A stretch of 59,118 nucleotides of DNA, taken from assembly GCA_016928835.1 (NCBI GenBank), contig JAFGJW010000017.1:1-59118 (forward strand). Reading direction: 5' to 3'. Both the position numbers and the translations under genes were made by a program. Source of the DNA: Candidatus Woesearchaeota archaeon. GTDB lineage: Archaea; Nanobdellota; Nanobdellia; Woesearchaeales; GW2011-AR15. The notes below the pieces were generated by a model that was not told the origin of the DNA, ran no database searches, and was given only the letters and a program-made list of their open reading frames with translations. Below, one piece after another: positions 25,701-47,573 of this stretch (within the stretch, counting starts at the first letter, position 1; the number at the start of each line of letters is the position of its first letter).

Positions 25701-28339
25701 CTGATAATAAATGGGAATACCTCGGAGGAGAGGACTATGGTCAGACAACAGGAAATTTTGACGCTTTTATTAATTATAGCTTTAACATTTCTGAGCTTGG
25801 TCTTTCAATAAACAGAATTCAGAATCTATCCTTTAAAATTGAATACTGTCATTCCGGAGACACTGCCAATCCTGAATGTAACCAGCTAAATGAGCAGCAT
25901 GAAGGTGTTGCTAATGGCCCGCAAAGCATCGGAATTTACAATTTCTCAGGAGGTTCGTGGCTGAACATATCTGAGCTACCAGTTGACAATGATACAAATA
26001 ATGAGCAGAACCATTCTTTTTACACTGATAACTCACTACTGGATTGTATTCAGAATAATATTGTTATGATACGGTTTGAAGTTGATTTCAACCAAACAGG
26101 CTATCAGGATGACATTCTTGTTATTGATTTTCTTCAATTGAATATTTCTTATGGATCTGAGGATCCAGAAGCTGCCTGCACAGATTATGACGATAAATTT
26201 TTGCAGGTTATCAATTATAATGAGTTTTTTGTGATTATCGAAGATACGCAGATTGAGATATATAATTTCTCCAACAACAATCTACTGGACTCGGATAATG
26301 GGACGTATTTTAGATACCTTCCATTGGAACAATTAAAAGTTCATGTATTTGCTCCTCTTTCAATAGATAACATCACTTACACTATCTTTGATTTGAATTA
26401 TTCAAGCAGTGTTAACTTAACTTCAGAAGTGATTGAAAATTATTCTTATACCCTGCCCAGTCTTATTACCAATGTTACATCGATAGTGGCTGTCAACGAC
26501 ACTTTAATCCAGTATAACAAGACACAGTTAAAAATCCCAACACAGGGTCTAGAAGTAAATACAATATTACACTGTCTGGACTTTGATTATTCAAATGCCC
26601 AATGTCAGCAATGGGAACTGGATGAAACTGGTGACTTTGAGTACTATAATGACTCTTCATATATCTATTTTAATGTTTCTTCCTTTGATGCTTTTGGAGG
26701 TGGCCCGGGGGATACGTTGCCCAATTTAACTTCAATTAACATCTATAATGTAACTGGTCTAAGTGGCACACATAAAGGCGGCACTTTGATTGGGCAGGGG
26801 CTCAATGAGACCTTTTATCTAACACCAAACAACCTTTACAGAGCAGAATTTGTTATAATAAATGATGGGCGTAAATGGATAATAGGCGAAGAAGACACTG
26901 CGTATCATAACGGGCTGAATCAAAGCTGGGATATTACCTGGGGAGACATCTGGTATGTGGACGGAGCTAATGCCACAAATTTCACTGGAGGCAACTTCAG
27001 CAATGGCAAAGTCAGTTGGAACCTAAGCTTAGGCGGAACATACGATTCTGGAGACACAGGCGCATTTTACTATGTTGTGAATATTACTACAACACACTCT
27101 AAGAACTATTCTGTATACTTTTACTTGAATGATACTTCAAAAAATAGCGGCAGTACAGATAACTCTGCTTACTTTGTTAGAGATATTTTTGGACCAGGAA
27201 TTACTTTAAATAATCCGGGCAATGAGTATAATTTTTCAGCAGGCCCAATTAATTTCAATTGGACAGCCAAGGATAATGGACCAGATAATTTAAGTTGTGA
27301 TATATTGATTAATGATGTTATTAACCAGACTAACATTACCAGCGAGAATAATGTTCCTAGAGACTACTCTGTCGATAATTTTAAGTCCGGAAAGTATAAT
27401 TGGAGTATTAACTGTACTGATACAAGCGGGAATTTTAACATAAGCGACACAATAAACTTCACAGTGATTGAAGGTCCATTTGATATTTCTATTAGTATAA
27501 GCAGTGACAATCATAGTATTGACCTGAATTGGAGCAGCGCAGCATATGCGATTTCATACAATTTGTATATCATAACAAACTACTCCCAGAACTTTTCATC
27601 AATACCAAATGCTACAGGAATCACTGATTTGAATTGGACAGATTCTGCTGCGAACCTCTCTTTTGAAAGATATTACAAAATAGGAGCAGTCAGAGGCAGT
27701 GCTATTGCTGTCAGTGATAAGACAGCAGGGATGCACAAAAAAGAGCTTGATATTAACTGGAATTTACTAAGTATACCATTTGAGCAACCAAATTGGTTGC
27801 TTTACAATGGAACAAATAATGGCAGAGACATCTTTACTGAACCAGGCAATTGTCTTATCTCTCTTTGGAGATTAAATGCATCAAACCAATCATTTGAAAG
27901 GACAGACTATGATGGCACAGTATGGTTGCCAGCTACAGGTTCAGAAAAATTTACTGGGATAGAGCCAGCTCGTGGATATTGGTTTGAAACTAATCAGCCC
28001 TGTAATGTCACTTTTGTTGGGGTTGTCCCTGAATACAATATATCTGTTGACCTTAAGGAGTATTTTAATGTTGTGGGATGGTTTTCTGGAAAGACAGCAT
28101 TACTTGGAGATGAGACAATACAAAAACCAATAGATGTAGCTCCCTCAGATAGTGTGTGGATCATACATCGCTATGATGAAATAACTGACTGGTTTGAGGT
28201 TACAGTGCACTGGTCAGGTTATGGATGGGTGCCAGCATGGAACAACACAAATTTTACATCAATTCAACCGTTCAAGGGTTATTATTTTGATGCGGTTGAA
28301 GACGCAATATGGAATCTTAATCCGGAGATTGGAACTTAA
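16715..28339 (+). CDS. Giant multi-domain surface protein (3874 residues)
   Basis: Signal peptide at residues 1-26, then an entirely extracellular chain with very many N-x-S/T sequons and no membrane anchor. Visible parts in order: an MG2/Ig-like domain near 385-480; a lectin-like beta domain about 608-790; a six-module Ig-like block about 1002-1568; a segment beginning WWNSSWEKRRPI (1573 on) that resembles DUF2341; a Gly-rich domain about 1846-2052; two tandem domains about 2192-2394; a second copy of the six-module block about 2395-2966; more beta domains; and a GWNL-like C-terminal pair about 3680-3874. The likely role is adhesion or formation of a surface coat. It is followed after 2 nt by the 28342 gene, so 16715-32128 is one long unit. 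Confidence 0.85.
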   Translation: MKLRKIFLVIGTFLAAAIILSSSQSDQKAIFLDKENYGLYEIVQVHLNYSNFKNTRLEISSQAKKFVYPNPVNIIKYVPSIYGTYNISFFKDSVLIDSTEFHVISEDMERETDFEKPKIVISTDKQQYDLNELIVIMICGGDDFTGYELEHIDNQRTYKFFDLDSSPIRILASNPGKHLVILTRNNEVVSETSFYVNGSLSSVLSDETKKLEQKLSTENKSEDVSLGVITSENVTQEQLPFKLVNAKNQSRKFTIVSATLKEGASLTLQQKKLHKVIISIEESSIKRIEFNNLNVDGDLTLGLDEIDDSFFVNNKKTVSSYALDPAQLSFEDALVTVTARGTELWKCKDWNFAQQACLGSWVKIKDITPGKNYSFLLTTQDPGFAETGIATVNTNKPIYHTSETAEIIMVVLDNKGHLVDNAEVHINITTPNNITFTFATQDNEVIKTQRGIYEISFSYTNTEGNYSMFVTAVGNNVNQTMSSYFFVKDFYEFDIIRETPAVTDPWRGAFESKVKIVPFNYEGEYSFTEVLPSSFEVSNFGDAIQSITGNSVLLTWTNLQSNSIVSYTALPPKKSPELYAIGPSYITYNSQKFYEARSWYLAIDPTVYFRIEAQRLDNVGENWIQVNFSNAYYDPIVIATLEISSSQTPSDTPTGVRITNVSSTSVEIRAMKVSENGTQSVAPDNTVFLMVAESGYWDISGFPTIEAGEHTTSNIAYKTSWTADPITMDAGWAGNAEFFHNPVTTNDLDFIETYARGSAQADAPTVTNFNLALNAMEIDKEFTHSSETVHYIVIERTSGSFIDGGGRSIEYSVERSADQIQQYGSGNNPEPHSLSQTPAWGIVDMIGEDGGDGHFDNWEDSPFGASNVVPYSQEDVYRDTETTHTAEEVSFFIVNDTFYYDQNKPPNVTSLNYPPNGANISSPVDFNFTVVDDFGIENCSLYMNISGWTIQGSNSNVLNNTNTNITISVPDGRYRWNVKCIDDALPFKYGWHDVNYTITADSSAPNVTNLQFNPSSQIVNLPVNITVDITEFIGTDAVIAKIVLPNSTQFNLTMSDTEGDGVFNLTFVYTGLVGQYNVTILANDTLGSLNDTVTAGFNVSLEDLSLVTDKPEYVVGEMVYIFGTGFNYTENITLVIYNPTNDPVNESLYPKDVISNLTGGINDSWYIPTDQMLGTYRINATDKTNPGRSIEVTFEIVSAIITTDQSGYEQGNWANITGYNWDSGVNVTMNITDENGRLVYGPVNVTSNASGWINDSWFVPYNATIGDHIIAAYEPSYPAKLDDYTFAVTARTVTLSVDYPWYKEGEQINITGTGFSPNANITINIFNSTGQSVSGYPGDVTSNSTGHINCSIIMSGLPEGTYTINATDQNYTNLNAYTTFEVVVAQILADKSSYNDGETVYLTGSYWDRFVNVTIDIVNITGQSETGYPQNVSSNITGGFDHTWVARAIGLTEVVYNVSAWQPDDVTEDASTNFSVFRQAVIETDKNFYVQKEVVNITGRLYMPNDYITLWIKSLNNGGTALGYPKILPTDTGGNLDHLFNISIYCEGEYTVIGTDQTFPVLLNDSKNFTVRPWWNSSWEKRRPIMLTNPDNEDYAEIGIELNITGLDGYVSSCMDELRIISTMTGQIINLNHLGGDDSTYCEVRFIANISANAVNESNYYVYYNNSQAAYPNYTNIILPYGTGKDGDLLVSSLDTIINNYTFINQNQSAGSWNISVNDSSEFSVGDEILLIQVQNGTTACGAGDYEFHIIKAICGNNLTLTTPIENDYCYNNPNTVSTDCTDTISGFDSALAQVVKVPHYRNVTVQSSASITAPNWTGYEGGILVFRVLGNTTVFGEINVTGRGFRGGQDGTNDDSEGGTGEGIAGWGYNPEAGDYPSGDWEVSGDCMQDPNGIGGAGSWCSNDNGGDPGAGGGYGTVGQSVVQDQGQSLSEGGVEIGYSDLSRMYFGGGGGAGSDNDNANPEGDGGRGGGIIYIVSKNLDGSIISSDGHEGYGDSGVTTSATGGGGAGGTIWLSANNLVFQTVSASGGLGGDDGSEPGGIGGNGRIRLDYNTKTGTSNPNPGYEGSAPTQYYSTDVDAIVGSVQQYFICEPIDAVTPNITVNSPPNYYNTTDSTPEINFTITDDLDTILNYTVFIDYIVNGQNGTVNNGTSKTLNISTLTQGPHTILIEGKDDYSNAKNSSVLYITIDYTGPSTNITDPINFTNTSEDTYTVVANAADQYLYVDTTTFLYRENNTASWKPACNDHQVIGGSAQCIWDLTLLTDGDSYQLRAYSNDTLGNVGDNYTVYNLTIDRQGPISNLTAPVNYTNITSDYNVVAVSSDLYSGIDTVVFEYRENSTTTWKLIGKDEQAPYSSTWHISSLPDGNTYQIRAYANDTLGNIGNYDVSYNITLDRTPPNIQNLQAVPSPQKLGLGVDITANITDLYSQISNVEARIVLPNSSQINLTMTDPESDSVYNAHFTGTLIIGMYNVTIFVNDSLGNSNISEKINFAVEYYTLSLSTDKESYIVQETVYVVGRGFSSYSNITVNVFNSTGQSIGVYPYDILSNATGDINNSWYIPFGQTLGAYTINATDKEDSSRSIITTFDIVTAVIESDKWIYQQGEMVNITGYNWDPGFDVTINITDQNGQLAYGPINVTGNASGWINHSWFSDYNATLGVHTIYAYEPSAPSKNDDYSFTITQRPVYLQLDYPWYKEGQQVNITGFGFSPYTNVTIKVYNSTGQSISDYPKNISSNNTGAINNSFTINNLQLGNYTINASDIMYENLNNYTLFEIVNQTLSTNKNQYVNGENVLIIGQYWSRLTNITVLIINSTGQSLPGYPKNVTTTANGILSDSCLAETLIQGTELFNLTAYNPYTPSENASTNFTVMRVAILDTDKNEYHQYELVNITGLYYTNHGEVQLIIRTLDGTKYAYYYPKTIMADSEGEINHLFNNTDICSGEYIVEAHDLTVSSLAANATFNITILKDNSSLQTANSSAPYGSYNLYAGPYVNTTASDNKWEYLGGEDYGQTTGNFDAFINYSFNISELGLSINRIQNLSFKIEYCHSGDTANPECNQLNEQHEGVANGPQSIGIYNFSGGSWLNISELPVDNDTNNEQNHSFYTDNSLLDCIQNNIVMIRFEVDFNQTGYQDDILVIDFLQLNISYGSEDPEAACTDYDDKFLQVINYNEFFVIIEDTQIEIYNFSNNNLLDSDNGTYFRYLPLEQLKVHVFAPLSIDNITYTIFDLNYSSSVNLTSEVIENYSYTLPSLITNVTSIVAVNDTLIQYNKTQLKIPTQGLEVNTILHCLDFDYSNAQCQQWELDETGDFEYYNDSSYIYFNVSSFDAFGGGPGDTLPNLTSINIYNVTGLSGTHKGGTLIGQGLNETFYLTPNNLYRAEFVIINDGRKWIIGEEDTAYHNGLNQSWDITWGDIWYVDGANATNFTGGNFSNGKVSWNLSLGGTYDSGDTGAFYYVVNITTTHSKNYSVYFYLNDTSKNSGSTDNSAYFVRDIFGPGITLNNPGNEYNFSAGPINFNWTAKDNGPDNLSCDILINDVINQTNITSENNVPRDYSVDNFKSGKYNWSINCTDTSGNFNISDTINFTVIEGPFDISISISSDNHSIDLNWSSAAYAISYNLYIITNYSQNFSSIPNATGITDLNWTDSAANLSFERYYKIGAVRGSAIAVSDKTAGMHKKELDINWNLLSIPFEQPNWLLYNGTNNGRDIFTEPGNCLISLWRLNASNQSFERTDYDGTVWLPATGSEKFTGIEPARGYWFETNQPCNVTFVGVVPEYNISVDLKEYFNVVGWFSGKTALLGDETIQKPIDVAPSDSVWIIHRYDEITDWFEVTVHWSGYGWVPAWNNTNFTSIQPFKGYYFDAVEDAIWNLNPEIGT
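19719..21416 (+). repeat. First copy of the duplicated six-module block in the giant gene
   Basis: It encodes about residues 1002-1568. Modules of about 95 residues run in the same order as in 23897-25607. Matching landmarks include NLQFNPS/NLQAVPS, DKPEYVVGE/DKESYIVQE, ITGYNWD, YPWYKEG and INHLF-type ends. The similarity is clear at protein level; DNA identity is lower, so the duplication is not recent. Confidence 0.8.
22250..22870 (+). other. Gly-rich domain segment with G8 and G7 tracts inside the giant gene
   Basis: It encodes about residues 1846-2052, dominated by GG and GGG runs with Asp, Asn and Ser, and is much more G-rich than the flanking DNA. A run of eight G lies at 22451-22458 and a run of seven at 22733-22739. 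It follows the DUF2341-like segment. Similar Gly-rich stretches are seen in other very large secreted proteins. Confidence 0.7.
23897..25607 (+). repeat. Second copy of the duplicated six-module block in the giant gene
   Basis: It encodes about residues 2395-2966 and aligns in order with 19719-21416. The strongest pair is the YPWYKEG module, with ITGTGFSPNANITI in copy one against ITGFGFSPYTNVTI in copy two. Confidence 0.8.
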
Positions 28340-34716: not shown

Positions 34717-35469
34717 TTAGAGTCTTCTCTGTCTCAAGACTTCTGGTTCTCGACGCATGTATTTTGGGACAATTGCTTCCACACATGATGCACCCAATCG
34801 TGCGAGAGTTTTATTTAGATCTTTTTCACCTTCATTCTTATGTGTTTCCTCTATTTTCTTGTATTCACTATTAATAAAAGCAGTTCCTTGTCTCTGAGCA
34901 TATACCTCCTCAAGCTGGTCAATTTCTCTTTCTAATTTTCGACCCGCTCCTGCAGCATAGTGACCACAGTCTGGATGCTTCATAAGATAAACACATATGT
35001 CCTCATTAGGCACATTCGAAAATCCAAATAGTGCTTCAATCAACTCATGTGCCACCCGCGGGGGGGCATTTTTTGTTCCGAATCCAAAACCGTCGCCACT
35101 AAATCTGAATGCCCCAGCATCTCCGGCTATACCAACAACAACCATTCCATCTCTATATGCTAACTGAATAAAACCCTCTTGTAAATATTTATGTGCTCTC
35201 TGCTCCAATTTATCCTTAGGTCTGTTGACAGCTAACTGTCTTCGATCAACTATCTCAAACTCTGTTCCGTTATATCTCAGTGCAACAAGAGTCCACGTAG
35301 AATCTGCTCTTTGTATATGTGCGTCATCATAGTATACTCCAATCTCTTCAAACCCATTTCCCAAACATGTTCCGGGATATTTAGAATCTACACACATTAA
35401 CACTATTTCATCAATAGTCTTTGGGATCTTTCCCTGAAGTATCTTTTTTATATTATTTATAATACTCAT
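34717..35469 (-). CDS. Soluble protein of unknown function
   Basis: A 250-residue protein without signal or membrane segments. The N-terminal 100 residues look like an alpha/beta or beta domain with two cysteines (MCVDSKYPGTC), and the C-terminal part is helical and charged. HELIEAL near residue 140 is not an HExxH metalloprotease motif. A C7 tract in the coding strand encodes A-P-P near residue 134. A TATA-like element about 26 nt upstream of ATG 35469 suggests a nearly leaderless transcript. The 3' end faces the 33919 gene. Confidence 0.6.
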   Translation of the reverse strand: MSIINNIKKILQGKIPKTIDEIVLMCVDSKYPGTCLGNGFEEIGVYYDDAHIQRADSTWTLVALRYNGTEFEIVDRRQLAVNRPKDKLEQRAHKYLQEGFIQLAYRDGMVVVGIAGDAGAFRFSGDGFGFGTKNAPPRVAHELIEALFGFSNVPNEDICVYLMKHPDCGHYAAGAGRKLEREIDQLEEVYAQRQGTAFINSEYKKIEETHKNEGEKDLNKTLARLGASCVEAIVPKYMRREPEVLRQRRL

Positions 35470-35636: not shown

Positions 35637-36035
35637 TTAATCTTCAGAAACAATAATCTTTTTTAATTTAGAGATTTTTTTGAAATGCTCGTCTGTTGTG
35701 ATCAAAGTCATGTCCCTATCAATAGCAATGCTGGCAATAATCAAGTCAAAAATTGGAATTGGTTTGCCTTTTCTCTCTAACTCTAATTTTAGTTCAGCAC
35801 AGATTCTGGCGCTGTTTTTTGTAGTGCCCACAAGCGGAGTCTCGTTTAGATTATGGAGTTTTATTTCCTTATCTGAGCTTCTCTTTAATATCCCGTAGTA
35901 AACTTCACTGTACGTCGGAGATGAGATGAACAAAAAACTCTTCTGCTTTGCTGAAATCTCAATAATCTTTTCAAGAATTCTCTTATTCTCCCTTTCCATC
36001 TCTATGTATATAGAAGTGTCCAGTATGAAATTCAT
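35637..36035 (-). CDS. vapC: PIN-domain ribonuclease toxin (VapC-like)
   Basis: A 132-residue single PIN domain with the acidic active-site set Asp6 (FILDTS), Glu44 (YSEVYYG), Asp97 (IFDLIIA) and Asp115 (TTDEHF). Enzymes of this family cut RNA, often tRNA, using Mg2+. Its ATG overlaps the stop of the antitoxin-like gene by ATGA, the usual order of antitoxin first. All catalytic residues are present, so it is likely active. Confidence 0.9.
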   Translation of the reverse strand: MNFILDTSIYIEMERENKRILEKIIEISAKQKSFLFISSPTYSEVYYGILKRSSDKEIKLHNLNETPLVGTTKNSARICAELKLELERKGKPIPIFDLIIASIAIDRDMTLITTDEHFKKISKLKKIIVSED

Positions 36036-36280
36036 TTTGTTTTTCTGAACTCAGTTTCTTTCCTGAACTCCTTCATTCCTTCTCTAATAACCATTACATC
36101 TTTGTCATCCAGACTTTTTTTCCTGTAGACCAATTTCTTCCAGTTTCCTTCTTCATTCCCCTCCTTATATTCGTTTACCATTTTGGAAAACATCTCTCCG
36201 GTCTTAAGATTATTTTTTGCAGCCTCTACTTTGAACGCTATCCAATCTTCGTCATTTACTTTCTTTATGCAAACATCCAT
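36032..36280 (-). CDS. vapB: VapB-like antitoxin
   Basis: An 82-residue protein starting MDVCIKKVNDEDW, with an N-terminal strand and helices of ribbon-helix-helix type (about 1-45) and a charged, probably flexible C-terminus (about 50-82) that would occupy the VapC active site. ATG 36280 is preceded by GGTGA at suitable spacing; an in-frame GTG further upstream is less likely. It partners the PIN gene. Autoregulation through the promoter at 36313-36323 is expected for the family. Confidence 0.8.
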   Translation of the reverse strand: MDVCIKKVNDEDWIAFKVEAAKNNLKTGEMFSKMVNEYKEGNEEGNWKKLVYRKKSLDDKDVMVIREGMKEFRKETEFRKTK

Positions 36281-36312
36281 GGCTTTCACCAACACAATAG
36301 AAAATGTTTAAC

Positions 36313-36507: not shown

Positions 36508-37122
36508 CTATCTCTTGCTCTTAATCCTCTTAGTCCTGAAAATGGATTCTCTCTCCTGCTCCTCTAATCTTAGCGAAATAAAATTGCTTAGCTTGATCAT
36601 CTTTGGGATTACATCAAATTCCAGAGCGTTTACTCTTCTCTTGGTTTTCTCTATCTCTCCCAGCAGCTTTTTTATGCTTGTCTCAACTTCTGCTACAAGG
36701 AGAATGTATTCAAGCAGCTCAGCATAGGCCCTTGTTGCTTCCATAACTGCGATGGAAGTGGTAACAGTGCCATATCCTTCTTCACCATATCTTCTTTTTT
36801 CAATTGTGCTTTCAATTCGCGGCACAATAACACCCATAATATTTCTTGTTTCTACAATTATCTCAGGTTTGTCTTTGATTGCCATTGCCGCTGACCGTAT
36901 CTCAATATCAGATGCCAGTAGCCGGGCCATATTAAGCTTATGCCTGGCCTCTTTATACTTCTCAGTTAGTTCCTTTCTTACTGTTTTTGTTTTTTTAAGA
37001 ATCTCAAAGAATTCAAGGATCAAACCATCTCTCTTTTTCTTCAGCAATTTATAACCAGACCTAGCCAATTTAATCTTTTTCTTAAGCTTCATTAACTCTG
37101 AACGTGTGGGTTTGATTTCCAT
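36508..37122 (-). CDS. atpD: A-type ATP synthase subunit D
   Basis: A 204-residue helical protein forming the central rotor stalk. Recognised from P-T-R-S-E-L-M-K-L-K-K-K at the N-terminus, the long coiled coil at residues 1-70, and the family's RRVNALEFDVIP segment near residue 166. It is the last gene of the operon, displaced from atpB by the carbonic anhydrase gene. It ends in a Lys/Arg-rich tail. Confidence 0.95.
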   Translation of the reverse strand: MEIKPTRSELMKLKKKIKLARSGYKLLKKKRDGLILEFFEILKKTKTVRKELTEKYKEARHKLNMARLLASDIEIRSAAMAIKDKPEIIVETRNIMGVIVPRIESTIEKRRYGEEGYGTVTTSIAVMEATRAYAELLEYILLVAEVETSIKKLLGEIEKTKRRVNALEFDVIPKMIKLSNFISLRLEEQERESIFRTKRIKSKR

Positions 37123-37196
37123 TTTTAAGCAATTTGGAGGACTTCATGTCCTCATTGATTAGTTTTGTCCTCTCTTTTGTTTGTTTAAGCAGAGCA

Positions 37197-37856
37197 TTAC
37201 GTCAACCTTTTGACCCTTACCTCTTTAAACTCATCCTCTAGCTCAGATAACACTTCATGCTCTTTCAACTTAACAGCATCCCTTACTCCATTAATATTAA
37301 TGACAATAATTGCACCATTTCCGGCCCCATATACATTATGTATGTCATACACTGCTCCAACAATAGTTGTATCTTTTCCTTTATAGAGTCTCATAGCATC
37401 CTTAACCTGCTCGTCTACATTAAGCTCAGTATATTTAGCCTTATACTCATTTTTATTATCGCCAAACTCTTTTATTTTTGAATGGGTAATCACACTAAGT
37501 GAGGCTAATTCTCTTATTATTCCGGCAGTTTCATTAGTGAAATCTGCAAGAGATGCTTTAATTGCACCGCAATCAGTGTGTCCCAAAACCAAGAGCACAG
37601 GGGTCCTGCAATGCAAAACTCCATAATCAATGCTTCCCTCTGAGTTTGATATCTGGTTGCCAATGTTTCGAATATGAAATACATGGTTTGTAAGATCCTT
37701 ATTCATAATATGCCCGCCAACTCTTGAATCAGAGCAGCAGACCATTGTAATCTTCGGCTTCTGACCCTCTTTTATATTTTCCCAAATTTCATGATTCACT
37801 TCATTCATGTAGTCTTCATTTCCCTTGAGCATATCTTTGACTATTTTCTTTGCCAT
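37197..37856 (-). CDS. Beta-carbonic anhydrase
   Basis: A 219-residue protein with the beta-class zinc site: Cys41, with Asp43 and Arg45 in CSDSR, then His93 and Cys96 in GHTDCG. It would interconvert CO2 and bicarbonate plus H+ in the cytoplasm. ATG 37856 has GAGGTGA just upstream and is preferred over the GTG two codons earlier. It lies 20 nt after atpB and 74 nt before atpD, inside the ATP synthase operon, and is probably co-transcribed. That placement is unusual; a link to pH or bicarbonate balance near the enzyme is only a hypothesis. Confidence 0.9.
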   Translation of the reverse strand: MAKKIVKDMLKGNEDYMNEVNHEIWENIKEGQKPKITMVCCSDSRVGGHIMNKDLTNHVFHIRNIGNQISNSEGSIDYGVLHCRTPVLLVLGHTDCGAIKASLADFTNETAGIIRELASLSVITHSKIKEFGDNKNEYKAKYTELNVDEQVKDAMRLYKGKDTTIVGAVYDIHNVYGAGNGAIIVININGVRDAVKLKEHEVLSELEDEFKEVRVKRLT

Positions 37857-37876
37857 ATTCACCTCACCCTTGGATC

Positions 37877-39247
37877 TTACTTATCATAATACTTATCTTT
37901 AAACTCAGGTTTAATTCTGATTAAATCCTTCTTTGGCATCATCCTCATAAGATCCCAGCCAATGCCAAGCGTACCTTTAATATCCCTGTCCTCGTGTTTT
38001 CCCTGCCTGACAAATCTCTTTTCAAACTCATCAGCAAATTTCAATAATTTCTTGTCCTTGTCAGACAACGCTTCCTCACCAACAATAGCCACCAACCCTC
38101 TTAAATCTCTTCCTTCAGCATAGTTGGCATAGAGCTGGTCAGAAACCTGTTTGTGGTCTTCTCTTGTCTTTGTTGGTCCAATGCCTGCATTCATTAATCT
38201 AGAAAGAGAAGGCAGTATGTCAATTGGGGGATAGATATTCTTTCTATGCAATTCTCTGCTCAGTACAATCTGTCCCTCTGTGATATATCCAGTAAGATCA
38301 GGAATAGGATGTGTAATGTCGTCTCCCATCATAGTTAATATGGGAATCTGTGTTATAGAACCATTTTTGCCATGAATCATTCCGGCTCGCTCATAGATCG
38401 TGGCAAGGTCAGTGTACATATACCCTGGATAACCTCGTCTTCCTGGGATTTCTTCCCTAGCTGCACCAATCTCTCTTAAGGATTCACAGTAATTAGTTAA
38501 GTCTGTTAAAATCACGAGTACATGCATGTCATGCTCGAATGCCAGGTACTCAGCTGCAGTTAAAGCCATCCTTGGAGTAATTAGTCTTTCAGAGGCAGGA
38601 TCACTTGCTAGGTTTAAAAAAACAACTGCTCTCTGCAACGCGCCTGTCTGCTCAAAATCTTTCATAAAATACTGTGCTTCTTCATTTGTAATACCCATTG
38701 CAGCGAAAATAACTGCAAAAGCCTGCTCTTTTCCAGGGACTTTTGCCTGGCGAGCAATCTGCAGTGCGATCTCATTATGAGGCAGCCCACTTCCAGAGAA
38801 GATCGGCAATTTCTGCCCTCTGACAAGGGTGTTGCACGCATCTATTGTGCTTATGCCCGTCTGGATAAACTCTGCTGGTGATTTTCTGGAATATGGGTTA
38901 ATAGCAGCCCCTGTTATATCTAATTTTTTCTCAGGAATTACCTCTGGACCTCCGTCTATCGGTTTTCCAGCTCCGCTTAGAATTCTCCCAAGCATATTTT
39001 TTGAAACATTAAGCTTTATTGTATCTCCAAGGAACTTAACCCAGGTATTTTTTCTGTCAATACCCCTGGTTCCTTCAAAAACCTGGACAACAACGATATC
39101 TTCGCTTGTGTCAAGCACCTGTCCCATCTTAATACTTCCATCTGAAAGCTTTATCTGCACCAGGTCAGCATAACCAACTGCATCTGTCTTCTCCGTAAAA
39201 ATAAGAGGACCAGCCACCTTTGTTATAGTTCTATATTCCTTAAGCAT
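37877..39247 (-). CDS. atpB: A-type ATP synthase subunit B
   Basis: A 456-residue regulatory subunit of the A1 hexamer. Family segments include the [12 protein letters not shown] region (degenerate P-loop), [44 protein letters not shown] and [11 protein letters not shown]. It does not hydrolyse ATP itself. ATG 39247 follows AGGTGAT and is preferred over the GTG three codons upstream, which overlaps the atpA stop. Normal length. Confidence 0.97.
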
Positions 39248-39252
39248 TAATA

Positions 39253-40995
39253 TCACCTGAATTTGTCAAATTCTCTATCCATATCTAGTTTAATCTTGGC
39301 AAGCTCTTTCTTGTAATCTTTAATGAACTTTATATTTGCAATAGTTTCTTTTGATTCCATATTAATAAGAGACTGGATCCCAGCTCCCTGGTCAAGCGCG
39401 AGATTTGCCTGATTAGCATAATGTAATATTGTCTCCATTAACATATACATCTTATCCATTTGGCAGTAAGTGTCAACTTCATGAAATGCATTCTGCTGCA
39501 AAAAGAACTCTCGTATCATCCTGGCAATTTCAAGAGTAAGCTGCTGCTTAGCTGGCAGAGCGTCGCTTCCAACAAGCTGCACAATCTCTAACAGTTTTTC
39601 TTCCTCCTGTAAATATGCCATCAGCTCATTCACCATCTCAACCCATCTTGCTCCCACATTATCAACAAACCAATTCTCCAAAGTATCCTTATAAAGGCTG
39701 TATGAGGTAAGCCAGTTGATAGCAGGGAAATGCCTTCTTTGCGCTAATCTCGGATCAAGTGCCCAGAAGGTTTTTATGACTCTTAATGTATTCTGAGTAA
39801 CTGGTTCTGAGAAGTCTCCCCCTGGCGGGCTGACAGCGCCAATAACAGTGATTGAGCCTATCTCTTTTGATAAGGTATTTACTCTGCCAGCTCTTTCATA
39901 AAACTCGGCAAGCCTTGTGGCTAGATAAGCTGGATAACCCTCTTCGCCTGGCATCTCTTCAAGTCTTGAAGATATTTCTCTCATTGCCTCAGCCCATCTT
40001 GAGGTTGAGTCAGCCATTAGGGCAACATTATATCCCATATCTCGATAATATTCTGCAATAGTCATGCCCGTGTAAACAGAAGCCTCTCTTGCAGCAACAG
40101 GCATGTTTGATGTATTTGCGATAAGTACAGTTCTGTTCATCAGAGGTCTTCCTGTTCTTGGGTCTTTCAGCTCTGGGAATTCTTTTAATACCTCAGTCAT
40201 CTCATTGCCTCGCTCTCCACAGCCGATATATACAATAATGTCTGCATCAGACCATTTTGCTAAGGTTTGTTGAGCAACTGTCTTTCCAGTTCCAAAACCT
40301 CCAGGGATTGCAGCCATTCCTCCTTTTGCCAGCGGGAATAATGCATCAAATATCCTTTGTCCTGTAATGAATGGGACCTCTGCCTGGAGTTTGTTTGTAA
40401 ATTTTCGCGGGGTTCTTACCGGCCACTTTTGGCTCAGTTTAAGTTCAGCTCCATTATCCAATTTTCCAATAGGCTCTTCAACATTAAATTTTCCAGCTTT
40501 TATCTCGGCGACTTTTCCTGTATACTCAGGCAGTGGAGGCAGAATGATTTTATGTATTAGCCCGGGCATCTCTTCAACCTCCCCAATAATTGTGCCTGGT
40601 TTTACACTCTCCCCCTTATTAACACTAGGCTTAAACTCCCATTTTTTTTCTAAATTAAGACCTGGGGCTTCAACACCCCTCTTAATGTATTCTCCCATCT
40701 GCTTGGTAAGCACTGGAAGAGGTCGCTGGATCCCGTCATAAATACTATCAAGCAAGCCGGGGCCGAGCAATACACTTAGTGGCTCTCCTGTATTCTCGAC
40801 TACTTCTCCCGGTTTAAGACCAGAAGTATCTTCATAAACCTGAATTGTTGTCTTCTCACCCTGAATCTGGATTACCTCGCCCATTAGTTTTTCATTTCCT
40901 ACTTTGACTAGGTCATACATTCTAGCACTAATACCCGTTGCAGTGACAACAGGTCCAGCAATCCTGTAGATTCTACCAATTTTTTCCTTGCTCAT
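39253..40995 (-). CDS. atpA: A-type ATP synthase catalytic subunit A
   Basis: A 580-residue catalytic subunit. The Walker A motif GGFGTGKT lies at about residues 232-239, the non-homologous region lies at about 115-185, and [16 protein letters not shown] and [13 protein letters not shown] follow. All are intact. ATG 40995 follows GGTGATATT and is preferred over the ATG at 41016, which overlaps the end of atpF. It makes or hydrolyses ATP in the A1 head, coupled to ion flow through AtpI/AtpK. Confidence 0.98.
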
Positions 40996-41008
40996 GATAA
41001 TATCACCA

Positions 41009-41323
41009 TCACGCATTCAATAAATCAACGCCTATTGATTTTTTGATCATTTCCCTCAAATTATCCTGTGCCGTATCCTTCTCGGAGAGCACAACAGTTA
41101 TAGGTTTTACTGATGTTTCAATCTCCTTTCTCAAGCTTTGGCTGATTGAGCCCACTGTGTCCTCATCAGTAACAATTACTCCCACAGTCGAATCCTGCAT
41201 GAGCTGCTTAACTTCTCTTTCAGGCTTCTCGCCAACTGTATAGATGCGTTCTATTCCGACTAACTTAAATCCAAGTACAAACTCTTCCTGGCCCAGCACA
41301 ACAAGATCTGCTATTTGAATCAC
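41009..41323 (-). CDS. atpF: A-type ATP synthase subunit F
   Basis: A 104-residue Rossmann-like central-stalk subunit, with [16 protein letters not shown] at the N-terminus and GVIVTDED in the middle. The GTG start at 41323 overlaps the stop of atpC (GTGA). The length is typical. Confidence 0.93.
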
Positions 41324-42351
41324 CCAGCAATCAAATTCTCTTTAATGAAAGATTCTGGCATACGCATCTGCTTGGCTTTGGCAAGCATAAGTAAATTCCT
41401 TATCTCAATCTCTTTTCCGAACATGTACAGCAATATTGTATCAGTGGATAAAGGGAATATATTTGGTGTATCCAAAATTTTCTTATACATAAATTTGTCC
41501 ATCTCAAGCTCAATTTGTGCTAAATCTTTCTTTTTGTGATAAGCTTCAAGCGTACTACCAAGCATCCTGCCATAACAGCTTTTCTTAAGGATTTTAATAA
41601 GAGAGGAAGTGTCTTTTAGCTTAACAAGCTCTTTTAATTGAAGTCTAGAGCCAGGATAAATCATGAACTCACCAAGATCAATTTCAAGCGCTCTGGATTT
41701 TATTAAATTTTTAATATTTAGAAAATCAACTTCTATCTCGAGAAATTGCTTTAAGACTCTTCCCTGCTCAGGGAGGGATCTGCTGAACTGCAGTAAATCA
41801 TTATAATAATGCATATCTAAAAGGTTTTCAATCAATGCCAAACTATTATTTTTTTTATAAAATTCATATCCTCTTTCTAAATAACTATAATTTATGAATT
41901 TTAAACTTTGCAGTATCTTTTTTACACTCTCATGCCTAACCAGCAAGTTTAGGTCATGGCTGTTAAGGGTGCCGGCGGGCAACAGCATTTTTATAATATC
42001 CTCTTTTGATTTTTTTGCGTATCTTCCCCGGATAATGGTCTTGACATTCCATACGTCCATTCTTTTTAGATATTGCATAATCAAAACCTGAGTGCTTGCA
42101 TTAGATATGGTTTTCAATCTATTGAAGACTTTGACAAGATTTTTTCGTAATGCATTTTCTAATAGCTCAACTCCCGAGTACTCTAGGCCGAGCTTGTCGA
42201 TTTCCTCTTTGTATTCATGTTCCTGAAGATACTGCGTCATTTCCATCAGTCTCATTTTAGCAAGGCGCTCATATTCTATAGGTTTAATTAGCTTTGATCT
42301 CATTACACACACTCTTGCATAGGTATAGGTGCTAAACGTTATCTTATCCAT
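41320..42351 (-). CDS. atpC: A-type ATP synthase subunit C
   Basis: A 343-residue helical funnel subunit that sits on the c ring and connects it to the stalk. Recognised from the YARVCVMRSKLI start, NVKTIIRGRYA near residue 105 and the repeated helical V-ATPase d/AC39 pattern. ATG 42351 follows GGTGA and lies inside the last codons of atpE (8-bp overlap). TTG at 42360 is an alternative. Confidence 0.93.
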   Translation of the reverse strand: MDKITFSTYTYARVCVMRSKLIKPIEYERLAKMRLMEMTQYLQEHEYKEEIDKLGLEYSGVELLENALRKNLVKVFNRLKTISNASTQVLIMQYLKRMDVWNVKTIIRGRYAKKSKEDIIKMLLPAGTLNSHDLNLLVRHESVKKILQSLKFINYSYLERGYEFYKKNNSLALIENLLDMHYYNDLLQFSRSLPEQGRVLKQFLEIEVDFLNIKNLIKSRALEIDLGEFMIYPGSRLQLKELVKLKDTSSLIKILKKSCYGRMLGSTLEAYHKKKDLAQIELEMDKFMYKKILDTPNIFPLSTDTILLYMFGKEIEIRNLLMLAKAKQMRMPESFIKENLIAG

Positions 42352-42898
42352 CTTCACCAAACAAGATATTTGAAACCTCCTTCAGATATTTGTTGAATAT
42401 GTCATTGATCATTGTGTCATAGCTGTAATCTATCCTTACTGTCCTATCCTTGTTCAGTACAATAATCCCTCCAATAATATCTGCCTTTCTGCATTCATAT
42501 TCCTTGACTAGACCCATATCCCTTTGGTTGCATAATACTATATCTACGCTCACTGTTTTTTTTGCATCTTTAATCATGTATTCTATATGCTCTTTTCTCT
42601 TATCTTTATCCAGTTTAGTAAGTTTCTCCTTTGTTGCTTCCATTACTTTCTCAAGTACTCTCTTCTCCATATTGAACCTGCTTCTTTTTATCTTAAATCC
42701 GAGGGATGCAGTATTTTTAGTCTTATAGTCGCTTACAATCCTTTCTTGTTGCTTCTTTAGTTCATCTTCTGCTCCGTTAAGCTCTCTCCTAGCTATTTCA
42801 CTGATTTTCTTGCACTCTGCTTTGCCATCTGCAGTAATCTTGCTTGCCTGCTTTTTAGCATTGTCCAAGATTTCTTGTTTAACTTCTTTTAGTCCCAT
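42344..42898 (-). CDS. atpE: A-type ATP synthase subunit E
   Basis: A 184-residue peripheral-stalk subunit: an N-terminal helix of about 100 residues rich in Lys and Glu, then a globular alpha/beta C-terminal domain with ADIIGGIIVLNKDRTVRID, the family signature. It pairs with AtpH. It overlaps atpC by 8 bp. Confidence 0.93.
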   Translation of the reverse strand: MGLKEVKQEILDNAKKQASKITADGKAECKKISEIARRELNGAEDELKKQQERIVSDYKTKNTASLGFKIKRSRFNMEKRVLEKVMEATKEKLTKLDKDKRKEHIEYMIKDAKKTVSVDIVLCNQRDMGLVKEYECRKADIIGGIIVLNKDRTVRIDYSYDTMINDIFNKYLKEVSNILFGEDG

Positions 42899-42904
42899 TT
42901 TGCG

Positions 42905-43135
42905 TTAGTGCGCAGCTAGTCCAATTATAAGTATGGCTACAACTAATCCGAAGATAACCAATGACTCAGGGATGACCGTTAAGATTAACCCCTTACCAAA
43001 GAGTTCGTCTTTTTCAGCCATTGCTCCGACTGCTGCAGCGCCAATTGTCTGTTCAGCTAATGCTGCGGCGATCGCACTTAAACCAATAGCCAAACCAGCA
43101 CCAATTGCAATCAATCCTGTACTTATATCCGCCAT
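42905..43135 (-). CDS. atpK: A-type ATP synthase proteolipid (c subunit, K)
   Basis: A 76-residue single hairpin of two Gly/Ala-rich helices. Glu57 in VIPESLVIFGL is the ion-carrying carboxylate, and the loop carries AEKDELFGKG. The single-hairpin form gives a full set of binding sites, suitable for ATP synthesis. Gln29 is a polar residue in helix 1, but H+ versus Na+ use cannot be settled by eye. The gene lies 14 nt after atpI and starts with an SD, AGGAGG, near 43148. Confidence 0.95.
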   Translation of the reverse strand: MADISTGLIAIGAGLAIGLSAIAAALAEQTIGAAAVGAMAEKDELFGKGLILTVIPESLVIFGLVVAILIIGLAAH

Positions 43136-43149
43136 TTTGTTTTTCCTCC

Positions 43150-45048
43150 TTATTCTTTTCTGCCAAATGAAATGTATCTAGTGCCTCCTCCTTTGAAGAA
43201 TTTTGTAAAGAACTCAACATAATGGAGTCTTAGAGAATGTAGGAAGGGGCTTAGAATGCCCAGTGCAATATTTATTGTGTGTCCAATAATGAGTATGAGA
43301 ACCGCAACCAGGATTCCTATAACACCCGTCTGGAATAGTTCTCCTGCCATCTCATTAACAACAGCTGCCAGACTGACCGAGGCAAGACCAACAGCCATAA
43401 GCCTCCCATAAGATAGGATATTGCTTAGAATTCCCGGGATCTCTATTGCTCCCCTTGTTCCTTCTCCAATGAGTATAATAACAAAACCGACACCAGCAAG
43501 AAGTCCGTTTATACCCAGAGAAGGGAGTATAGAGTTTACAAAATCTGCATAAGGTCCAGTTATTATCTTAAGAAATGAAGACATTAGCCATAGCAAGATT
43601 GGTAGCAATAATAACCAGCCTGCCTTTTCCATGAAAGCATGCTTTAATCCATGGTGTTTGTAAATATTCACAAATCCAATTAGGATGCCAATAGCGACAT
43701 GGATTACTCCGATAAGAACAGATAAACTTAATAAATCATTGATCTGATGCATCCTGCTCATCACTCTTGGGAAGTCATATATAACATTATTTAGTGTGAA
43801 GGTTTCAATGCCAAAATATTCTCCGAAGAGCAGCCCAAAGAAAATAGTTGACAAGGAGGCAAATATCATAGCATTCAATAGACCTTTTGCTTCAGGGCTC
43901 TCCATCTTTCTTTTTATGATTAAAAACAGCACCAGTGTAATGAGCCCATAACCAACGTCCCCGAGCATGAACCCGAAAAATAGCGGGAACGTCAGGAACA
44001 TAAAGAATGACGGATCAATTTCTCCATAACTGGGCAGGGTATAGAGATTCATAAAAAATTGGAACGGCTCAACAATCTTAGGGTGTTTAAATGCAACTGG
44101 CACTTTATCATGCTTATCTGGCATCTCTGCTTTAAAATGTACTTTCTTTTTTGTTGCTTTATTAAGCTCGCTCTCCAATTTGCTGCACTTCTTTTTGGGC
44201 ACCCATCCTGTGATGATAAAACTGTTTTCAGACGTAGCAAATTTTAATGGGGCCTCAGCAATCTCAACCTTCATAGTCAAGTGATTCTCAACTTCCAGGA
44301 TAAAATCTTGGTTATCTTTTTTTATATCTTCAATCTTGCCATTAAGTTCATCTTTCAGCTTGTGCAACATATTAAGCTGTTTACCCTTCTGTATTTTCAT
44401 TCCGGGACCAGCCTTAAGGTCAGGAAACATAGTTGTAACATGTTCCTCCTCAATAGGAGAAAAAGAATGTTCTGCCAGAATTTGTCTAGCTTTGTCCTTA
44501 TTCTTAGTGTCAACAAAAAGTCCAATCAGCTTAACATTATCTATATTTAGGGAGTACAATTCATAGCCATGAACCTTAGAGGAAATCTCTTCCTCGATAT
44601 CATCATCAACAAAACCAAAAAAGTGGCTCTGCTTACTATAATCTGCATCGAGTTTCAGCTGGAAACCTGCCTCCTTCAGCAGCTTAGCCTGTTCTGGATA
44701 CAGCTCTATGACTTTGTCATAATACTTGAGTTTCTTCTGAAGAGCAGATATATCCTCATATAGCTTATTAAGCCTTATTTTAATCTTATTAGTATCAGTG
44801 TCTTTTTTTAACTTAACTCTTCGTGGAGTTATATTAAGAAAGGAAGCAATTGCCCTAGTTTTGACAATCATGTCAGCATATTCTTCGCCTTCTTCAAGGG
44901 GCTTGCCGATATCAAATACATCTTCCTCGCTCTTCAAATGCTCGGTAATATGCAAAACATTCAATCTATAAAGAACCTCTATTGTCTCTTTCATTAAGGA
45001 TTTTGGTCCAGCAATCTCTACCTTAAGCATTCGTTCTGATTCAAGCAT
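43150..45048 (-). CDS. atpI: A-type ATP synthase subunit I (a)
   Basis: A 632-residue protein. The N-terminal cytoplasmic half (about 1-330) is a long alpha-helical arm, and the C-terminal half has about seven to eight membrane helices. The essential stator arginine lies in LSYGRLMAVGLA. GEYFGIETF and FPLFFGFMLGDVGYG are family landmarks. It forms the ion half-channels beside the c ring and the attachment for the peripheral stalk. It lies 1 nt after atpH. Confidence 0.95.
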   Translation of the reverse strand: MLESERMLKVEIAGPKSLMKETIEVLYRLNVLHITEHLKSEEDVFDIGKPLEEGEEYADMIVKTRAIASFLNITPRRVKLKKDTDTNKIKIRLNKLYEDISALQKKLKYYDKVIELYPEQAKLLKEAGFQLKLDADYSKQSHFFGFVDDDIEEEISSKVHGYELYSLNIDNVKLIGLFVDTKNKDKARQILAEHSFSPIEEEHVTTMFPDLKAGPGMKIQKGKQLNMLHKLKDELNGKIEDIKKDNQDFILEVENHLTMKVEIAEAPLKFATSENSFIITGWVPKKKCSKLESELNKATKKKVHFKAEMPDKHDKVPVAFKHPKIVEPFQFFMNLYTLPSYGEIDPSFFMFLTFPLFFGFMLGDVGYGLITLVLFLIIKRKMESPEAKGLLNAMIFASLSTIFFGLLFGEYFGIETFTLNNVIYDFPRVMSRMHQINDLLSLSVLIGVIHVAIGILIGFVNIYKHHGLKHAFMEKAGWLLLLPILLWLMSSFLKIITGPYADFVNSILPSLGINGLLAGVGFVIILIGEGTRGAIEIPGILSNILSYGRLMAVGLASVSLAAVVNEMAGELFQTGVIGILVAVLILIIGHTINIALGILSPFLHSLRLHYVEFFTKFFKGGGTRYISFGRKE

Positions 45049-45049
45049 T

Positions 45050-45376
45050 TTACAACCCTCTTATATAATTGTCAACTTGTTGAAATATGAAGTCTGAGGC
45101 ACTTGATATTTTTTGCTTTGACATATCTTCGATGTCAGCCAGTTGCTTCTCATTTGCCAGTTCATGCTTTTCCAGCTGTCTGTCAATCTCTTTCTTTTCT
45201 CTTTTGATTTCTTTCTCGATATTCTGCTCAATCTCTTGTTTTTTTAGTGTAATCCCTTTGGCAGCATCCTCTCTTGCCTTTTTTATACTTTCTTCCCTCG
45301 CTGTTTTTGCATCTTCTATTATCTTGTGCGCCTGTTTCTCAACTTCAGAAAGTTCAGTTTTTAGATTATTTGTCAT
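45050..45376 (-). CDS. atpH: A-type ATP synthase subunit H (peripheral stalk)
   Basis: A 108-residue, nearly all-helical protein rich in Glu and Lys (coiled coil over most of its length), first gene of the operon. It pairs with AtpE in the peripheral stalk. ATG 45376 is preceded by a tiny four-codon ORF with an SD, which overlaps it by ATGA. Confidence 0.85.
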   Translation of the reverse strand: MTNNLKTELSEVEKQAHKIIEDAKTAREESIKKAREDAAKGITLKKQEIEQNIEKEIKREKKEIDRQLEKHELANEKQLADIEDMSKQKISSASDFIFQQVDNYIRGL

Positions 45377-45762: not shown

Positions 45763-45819
45763 TATTCCGTTACCATATATTACTAAATAGGGGGTATTTG
45801 GTTTTTATAAGTGTGGAAA

Positions 45820-46710
45820 ATGGATGTTAGGAGTATTCAAAAAACAGGGAATATGTACTATATGTATCTTCCCTCTTCTTGGTGCAAAAAGCATAAGATA
45901 GTCTCACAGTCAAAAGTAATTGTAAATGAGGATAATCAGGGTATTTTGACTGTGTCAGCAAGGATTGAGGACAAAAAAGCAAAAGATATAGAGATTAACT
46001 TAAAAGAAGATAATCTTGATGTGATCCAGAAAGTAATTATGGGGTGCTATGTCAATCCGACTAATTCTTTTACAATAAACCTAGAAAAGAAAATGGATGT
46101 GGCAAAGCTCCTCCAGCAAAGGAAGCTCATTAGCCTTGCATTAGTAGAATGTTGTGAAAATACTATCTCCTGCGAATCAAATGTCTCTATTGAGAATCCA
46201 TTATCCTTATTAATAACTATGCTAAAAAAAACAAGAAATTTGATATACTTAATGATAGAAAACTATGATTCTGAGTTGATCAACCGCTACGAAGAAGAAA
46301 TTGATGAGAGTAAAATTTTAATTGAGAAATCAGTGATAGCTTCTTTTACCTACCATAAAGTTCCCAAACTGAAAACAATTGAAATATACTATATCTCCCA
46401 AATTTCAAAAGACTTGGAAAGATTTGTTGACCATCTGATTCAGCTAACTCCTAGCGAGTCCAAGATATTGAATGTTCTAATAAAGATAATAGATAAATTA
46501 AAGGAAATAATTGTCTCTTTAAAAAATCCTGATACAAACTTAAATAATGGTACCTGTGTTGATTTCGTACATATGTTAAAATCAATACCTGATATAAACG
46601 TAGATGATAGTAAGAAATATAATGTCCATAGAATCAAAGGAACATTAACAGGCATTAGCGAGGTTCTAATGGATTGGTCAGTAACTCAGAGGTTAGAAGA
46701 AAGCAGATAG
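45820..46710 (+). CDS. AbrB-PhoU family regulator, paralogue 1
   Basis: A 296-residue protein. Residues 1-45 (MDVRSIQKTGNMYYMYLPSS) form a SpoVT/AbrB-like swapped-hairpin domain, and residues about 80-290 are a helical PhoU-like domain. This archaeal fusion is usually linked to phosphate uptake control. ATG 45820 is chosen because its product aligns from residue 1 with the 46686 paralogue (MDTRKIQRSG); a GTG three codons upstream exists. No Pst transporter is in the window. It overlaps its convergent paralogue by 25 bp. Confidence 0.85.
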   Translation: MDVRSIQKTGNMYYMYLPSSWCKKHKIVSQSKVIVNEDNQGILTVSARIEDKKAKDIEINLKEDNLDVIQKVIMGCYVNPTNSFTINLEKKMDVAKLLQQRKLISLALVECCENTISCESNVSIENPLSLLITMLKKTRNLIYLMIENYDSELINRYEEEIDESKILIEKSVIASFTYHKVPKLKTIEIYYISQISKDLERFVDHLIQLTPSESKILNVLIKIIDKLKEIIVSLKNPDTNLNNGTCVDFVHMLKSIPDINVDDSKKYNVHRIKGTLTGISEVLMDWSVTQRLEESR

Positions 46711-47573
46711 TCTTTGTCTACTTCATTTGATATCAGCCAATCAGAAAATATCTCGCCAATGTGAGCAAGGAGAGAGACAATCCTCTCCCTGTAAAAGGTT
46801 TTCTCATCTTTTACATGAATTTTTTCAAACCTTGAAAGCTGCTTAATATAAGAAATTACTGACTGCTGATTGAGGTTATTCAGAACCTCTTCTAATCTTT
46901 TTAAGGATACTAAAAAATTGTCCAATATCTTCTCTTCCTTATCTAGTTTAATTAATATGTCATTTACCTGCTCTAATGTTCTAGAAAGCATCCCAATATA
47001 GAAAAGGTCAATATGCCTCAGTTCAGTGTCCTTTTTATACATCAGTGAGCTGATTATTGATTTTCTAATCATAAGATTGCTTTTGTCGATCTCTTCTTCA
47101 TACTTCTCTATTAGCTCGGGCGTCTCAGCTTCTTTAATCAGCCTGATGCTACTTATCATCTTCTTAATCATTGTACTTATCATTAGCTTGGGATTCTCTA
47201 AGGTTATTGTGGTGTTGCATGAAATTGAGTTGGAGTCAAATTCAATAAGCTCTAATCCGCCCAAAATCTTTTTATGCGCCAGAATTTGCCGTGAGGTCAA
47301 CTCATCTTTTAATAGTATATCAAATTTCTTAACTGGGTTGATATAAGATGCAACAGTTATCTTATTAATCACTTCTGGAGTAGTCTCTTCCAGTTCCAAG
47401 CTTAAACTTGGGAGCTCTGGTCTTTTACTATCAGTATTAATGACCAAACCTCCTGACGAAGATCTGCTCAATCTGACCTTTGATTTTGTTGTTATCTTGT
47501 TCTCCCTGCACCAGGATGCTGGCAAATACACATAGTAGGTTGCACCAGATCTTTGAATCTTTCTAGTATCCAT
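46686..47573 (-). CDS. AbrB-PhoU family regulator, paralogue 2
   Basis: A 295-residue protein with the same layout as its neighbour: AbrB-like residues 1-50 (TYYVYLPASWCRENKI) and a PhoU-like helical domain. The two align along their whole length but face each other tail to tail, with the last eight codons overlapping. The transcript is probably leaderless (TATA at 47593-47607). The pair may form heterodimers or respond to different signals; this is inference. Confidence 0.85.
   Translation of the reverse strand: MDTRKIQRSGATYYVYLPASWCRENKITTKSKVRLSRSSSGGLVINTDSKRPELPSLSLELEETTPEVINKITVASYINPVKKFDILLKDELTSRQILAHKKILGGLELIEFDSNSISCNTTITLENPKLMISTMIKKMISSIRLIKEAETPELIEKYEEEIDKSNLMIRKSIISSLMYKKDTELRHIDLFYIGMLSRTLEQVNDILIKLDKEEKILDNFLVSLKRLEEVLNNLNQQSVISYIKQLSRFEKIHVKDEKTFYRERIVSLLAHIGEIFSDWLISNEVDKDYLLSSNL

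Follow-up and report, generated by a model that had tools for sequence, protein, structure and literature searches.

The stretch of DNA analysed here (59,118 nucleotides from a Candidatus Woesearchaeota archaeon; hereafter the window) carries an A-type ATP synthase operon on the minus strand at positions 36508–45376. Its genes stand in the order H-I-K-E-C-F-A-B-D, as a preliminary description had read them, and Pfam and NCBIfam searches bore this order out. The operon encodes the peripheral stalk subunit H (atpH, 45050–45376), the membrane stator subunit I (atpI, 43150–45048; Pfam and NCBIfam), the 76-residue ion-binding ring subunit (atpK, 42905–43135; Pfam ATP-synt_C, E = 6.2e-18), subunit E (atpE, 42344–42898; vATP-synt_E), subunit C (atpC, 41320–42360; vATP-synt_AC39), subunit F (atpF, 41009–41323; ATP-synt_F), subunit A (atpA, 39253–41016; Pfam and NCBIfam), subunit B (atpB, 37877–39256; Pfam and NCBIfam) and subunit D (atpD, 36508–37122; ATP-synt_D, E = 3.3e-53), all on the minus strand. 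Subunits E, C, F, A, B, D, I and K passed the Pfam cut-offs, and H fell just below its own (V-ATPase_G, 27.1 bits against 28.6). The ring-subunit motif, with Q/K/T in helix 1 and PES/PET in helix 2, does not separate H+ from Na+. Neither Rfam nor tRNA scanning of the window gave a match.

Between atpB and atpD, on the same strand as the ATPase subunits, lies a complete β-carbonic anhydrase (CA) gene (37197–37862). Its open reading frame runs from an ATG at 37856 to a stop at 37197, with an in-frame GTG at 37862 as a possible start. The gap to atpB, counted from the ATG, is 20 nt (37857–37876, minus strand) and holds a ribosome-binding-like GAGGTG five nucleotides 5' of the ATG, in agreement with the spacing and the Shine–Dalgarno sequence described beforehand; on the other side, 74 nt separate the gene from atpD. 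The product matches Pfam Pro_CA (PF00484) with an E-value of 2.3e-23 and a score of 83.6 bits, where the cut-off is 25.7, and matches PDB β-CAs with a best E-value of 5.6e-22. The zinc site (CSDSR...GHTDCG), already described as intact, is so: the zinc and dyad residues C43, D45, R47, H95 and C98 are invariant in an alignment of seven operon CAs. The C-H-C zinc ligands and the Asp-Arg dyad are common to this protein and the β-class; its location in an ATP synthase operon, however, is a feature for which we found no precedent. No report of CA genes in ATP synthase operons was found in the open-access literature searched, and one may be in print elsewhere. By eye, the N-terminus has no evident signal peptide, and the enzyme should thus act in the cytoplasm. 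Judged from its sequence, the window protein should be a classical zinc β-CA, predicted to be soluble and cytoplasmic. It is the sole Pro_CA match in the 1.53-Mb, 95% complete genome of the window.

The surroundings of the operon hold several further genes. On the 3' side of atpD, a minus-strand gene at 34717–35469 encodes a 250-residue protein with the motif CVDSK...HPDCG (CxDxK...HxxCG) that has no Pfam, NCBIfam or PDB match; an AlphaFold model from the single sequence reached a pLDDT of 36, too low for use. Profile comparison gave no connection to β-CAs or to the LCIB type, and we therefore claim for it the zinc-like motif alone. Genome G006 of the same order (genomes and families are given here by G and f numbers) has a weak relative of this protein after atpD (E = 0.03) with a broken frame, and G005 encodes a 585-residue CSDSR...HFGCG protein two genes past atpD. 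Tentatively, the window protein and these proteins of G005 and G006 may be further CA-like members of the ATPase neighbourhood. Between atpD and the 34717–35469 gene lies a PIN-domain gene (35637–36295; Pfam PIN, E = 1e-14), which with a small upstream partner forms a VapBC-like pair. Flanking the start of the operon, positions 45811–47573 encode a protein that weakly matches PhoU and another that weakly matches MazE; proteins of similar appearance were read upstream of the ATPase genes in G001, G005, G013 and G480. Elsewhere in the window, a 3874-residue open frame with repeated segments (16715–28339) is, by eye, probably a surface protein.

The position of the CA gene recurs within the order, whose members are small archaea not yet in culture. 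A profile of the seven operon CAs was run over 352 genomes of the window's order and matched 16, of which 13 are credible β-CAs; those of G117, G092 and G620 were weak matches only (E = 1.6e-4 to 8.8e-4) and were dropped. Nine of the 13 fall precisely in the B–D gap and represent five families (five in f1 and one each in f5, f24, f39 and f10), and four lie at other places (G114, G426 and G596 of f38; G522 of f25). Nine out of 13 in one slot excludes chance placement, and the insertion is not unique to this genome, a possibility that the preliminary description had raised against its own reading. Within the window's family, f1, five of ten genomes have a CA, each time between B and D, and in G006 the stop codon of atpB overlaps the CA start (TAATG). 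Samples of the class (378 genomes) and of the phylum (371) gave CA matches in the window's order only, with no operon case outside it. Among 80 named loci in the matches listed, an ATPase was nearby, within the flanks, only in one from Candidatus Woesearchaeota (JAIPIC010000034.1). The operon β-CAs are neither resolved as one clade nor rejected as having one origin (AU test, p = 0.31). G032 (L045) has a tandem pair of A-type ATPase operons with a CA in the second only, which is the closer of the two to the window's operon.

The slot between B and D also receives other genes. We surveyed the atpB–atpD junction at 109 atpB reading frames in 107 genomes and could read it in 103; the survey genomes were partly picked for having a CA, so that the 23 filled slots among these 103 are not a frequency estimate. 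The remaining 80 hold no insert, and the CA is thus dispensable for the ATPase. β-CAs fill nine of the readable slots. The LCIB/C type of CA (LCIB_C_CA, PF18599) passed the Pfam cut-off in eight of the 352 genomes, with five in the slot (G109, G145, G509, G512 and G613; two in f10, two in f28 and one in f82) and three elsewhere; G614 fell under the cut-off and was dropped. The G109 slot protein matches a PtLCIB4 mutant entry (E = 4.8e-19). LCIB/C CAs are treated mainly in algae in the literature searched, whereas the five found here stand in archaeal ATPase operons. Both the β-CA and the LCIB kinds are present in G013 and G004.

Other slot proteins resemble CAs more distantly. Those of G493 and G516 are LCIB-like, with no Pfam match and a profile–profile probability of 91.5%. 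The G018 protein is β-CA-like; its Pro_CA score stays under the cut-off (12.6 against 25.7 bits), and hhalign compares it with β-CA at 70% with both zinc motifs aligned. The G112 protein is a left-handed β-helix with weak PDB matches to γ-CAs, and it scores 19.3 bits against the 250-bit cut-off of the γ-CA profile. In G478 and G560 the slot protein has a CxD/E...HxxC zinc-like motif, which is all that we claim for the two, as profile comparison found no connection to β-CA or LCIB. The slot further holds a CPA2 Na+/H+ antiporter in two genomes (G035 and G546) and, once in the survey, a six-gene cluster like complex I and group 4 hydrogenases (G558, L263:4272-11381), the genes of which match, in order, a NuoL/Mrp antiporter, NADHdh, nothing, a second NuoL/Mrp antiporter, and the 49/30-kDa and 20-kDa subunits of complex I. 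An evenly drawn sample of 145 genomes had an atpB match in 58 and a filled slot in eight of these (three β-CAs, two LCIB proteins and the inserts of G018, G112 and G035), and a further 80 genomes, 18 with a match, added no new filled slot. In family f10, matches were present in 33 of 36 genomes; 30 loci were read, and the ten filled slots among them hold five or more kinds of content. Some of the surveyed operons depart from the usual form in other respects. G509 has a second ring subunit (ATP-synt_C, L198:8515-8778) between atpB and its LCIB gene, with S replacing Q/K/T at the helix-1 position, and an amidotransferase-like reading frame between atpA and atpB. The atpA frames of G486, G472, G493, G150 and G079 are about 1000–1120 residues long against the usual 580, and possibly contain inteins.

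The neighbouring A–B junction served as a control. It was readable at 98 of the 109 loci and held a reading frame of at least 80 residues in six: three similar membrane proteins of f58, two glutamine-amidotransferase-like proteins (named by eye) and one 119-residue protein. No CA was read among these 98 junctions. The A–B junction is thus without the bias toward CO2 and proton genes of the B–D slot. Among the 868 reading frames of at least 180 residues in the archaeal loci, 19 contain the motif C.[DE]...H..C[GA], a count that reports positional enrichment within loci centred on ATPases and CAs and not a genome-wide rate. All 19 are β-CAs, the slot proteins of G018, G478 and G560, the window protein at 34717–35469 or the 585-residue protein of G005; LCIB proteins have their own pattern and fall outside this one. 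Slot states were mapped onto an AtpB tree with 108 rows, made by a quick method with many open forks and with unreadable slots scored as empty; this took at least 18 changes between filled and empty, at least 19 in content type, at least six for β-CA and at least six for LCIB. The slot states are scattered over this tree, and near neighbours within f10 differ.

Taken together, the pattern suggests that CO2/bicarbonate chemistry works together with the ion-driven ATP machine. We think it fairly probable that the B–D slot has been recurrently filled with genes that handle CO2, bicarbonate, protons or Na+, and that their co-expression with the ATPase would help to balance cytoplasmic pH and bicarbonate. 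Proton handling would be the common denominator that best fits a slot which also receives antiporters and a complex-I/hydrogenase-like cluster. Counting against the link to the slot, four of the order's β-CA genes and three of its LCIB genes are sited elsewhere.

A CA speeds the equilibrium between CO2, bicarbonate and protons and adds no free energy. Through the ATPase, protons leave the cytoplasm during hydrolysis and enter it during synthesis, and hydration by a cytoplasmic CA would release its protons on this side. A shared transcript would couple the level of the CA to that of the ATPase, and the enzyme would hold CO2 + H2O = HCO3- + H+ near equilibrium at the pace of ATPase ion movement. 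In the pump direction, in which ATP is spent and which is likely in fermenters, CO2 hydration would supply cytoplasmic protons; in the synthesis direction, bicarbonate dehydration would absorb incoming protons into CO2. The net effect would be a steadier cytoplasmic pH and bicarbonate level. It had been proposed beforehand that co-expression could tie proton-releasing CO2 hydration to ion-driven ATP synthesis. If this means that hydration protons drive synthesis, it is backwards for a cytoplasmic enzyme: since protons arrive in the cytoplasm during synthesis, hydration there would oppose synthesis and feed the pump direction only.

Related arrangements are known. Acid-secreting cells of animals use CA to supply or remove protons beside the V-ATPase; the proton supply beside a rotary ATPase is alike, but that cooperation is eukaryotic and relies on separate genes and α-CAs, with no known operon. 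DAB2 (DabA–DabB) is reported to include a β-CA-like protein coupled to the proton gradient (PMC13144422); it is a two-protein membrane complex, whereas the window CA is predicted to be a soluble classical β-CA, and no partner of the DAB2 kind was seen with it. For the archaeon Nitrosotalea, a cytoplasmic buffering role has been proposed for a CA in a separate gene cluster (PMC4836417). Woesearchaeota are described as being without complete electron transport chains and in some cases as having a V-type ATPase (PMC8421398); the term carbonic anhydrase is absent from the main text of that paper.

Other readings of the slot were weighed against these data. The first is that the CA provides carbamoyl-phosphate synthase or a biotin carboxylase with bicarbonate and that the ATPase operon merely offers a strong, constitutive transcript. 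We sought the CPSase_L_D2 domain in 55 chosen genomes and found matches in 44, including a strong one in eight of the nine β-CA genomes. Within f1, a CarB-size match is present in all five CA genomes and absent from the CA-less G001–G003; nevertheless, G008 and G009 have such a match without a CA. Moreover, five genomes with a CA or CA-like protein in the slot (G013, G109, G145, G613 and G112) match the domain weakly or not at all, a strong match goes with an empty slot in many genomes of f10, and the slot antiporters and complex-I-like cluster are left unexplained. Bicarbonate supply, which the preliminary description had also put forward, is therefore possible as a function but not sufficient: it may contribute but fails to account for the whole pattern, and as the full explanation we regard it as unlikely.

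Still less probable, in our judgement, is a docked CA, in which the slot CAs would bind A1 or the central stalk as an interchangeable accessory subunit with local proton exchange. The constant position between B and D favours such docking, as does a basic-Arg-hydrophobic tail seen, post hoc, in eight of nine operon β-CAs against two of 79 named non-operon rows among the matches listed. However, the unrelated CA types in the slot make a common docking surface less likely, and a similar tail occurs on the non-operon CA of G114. The weakest reading, a permissive site at which one old insertion was kept by drift and vertical inheritance with no functional link to the ATPase, is compatible with the AU result given above, but it is made very improbable by the different CA families and antiporters at the same position, the at least 19 changes of content on the AtpB tree and the differing content of the A–B junction.

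We thus return to a B–D slot that would serve CO2, bicarbonate and proton handling together with the ATPase. A bolder form of this proposal, which we offer as a speculation with the odds against it, is that CA is an exchangeable functional module of the archaeal rotary ATPase. Different types would have been repeatedly recruited to one slot because, in these minimal fermenters, a CO2/bicarbonate proton buffer is what the ATPase has to work against, possibly with the CA docked to it, and the CxD...HxxC slot proteins would represent new CA families. If true, CA would be linked by genome context alone to the rotary ATP synthase of cells that have very few bioenergetic components, and this link would have arisen by convergence rather than from one inherited gene pair. 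It would also offer a direct way to test proton and CO2 handling in such fermenters, and the slot would help to find candidates for new CA families.
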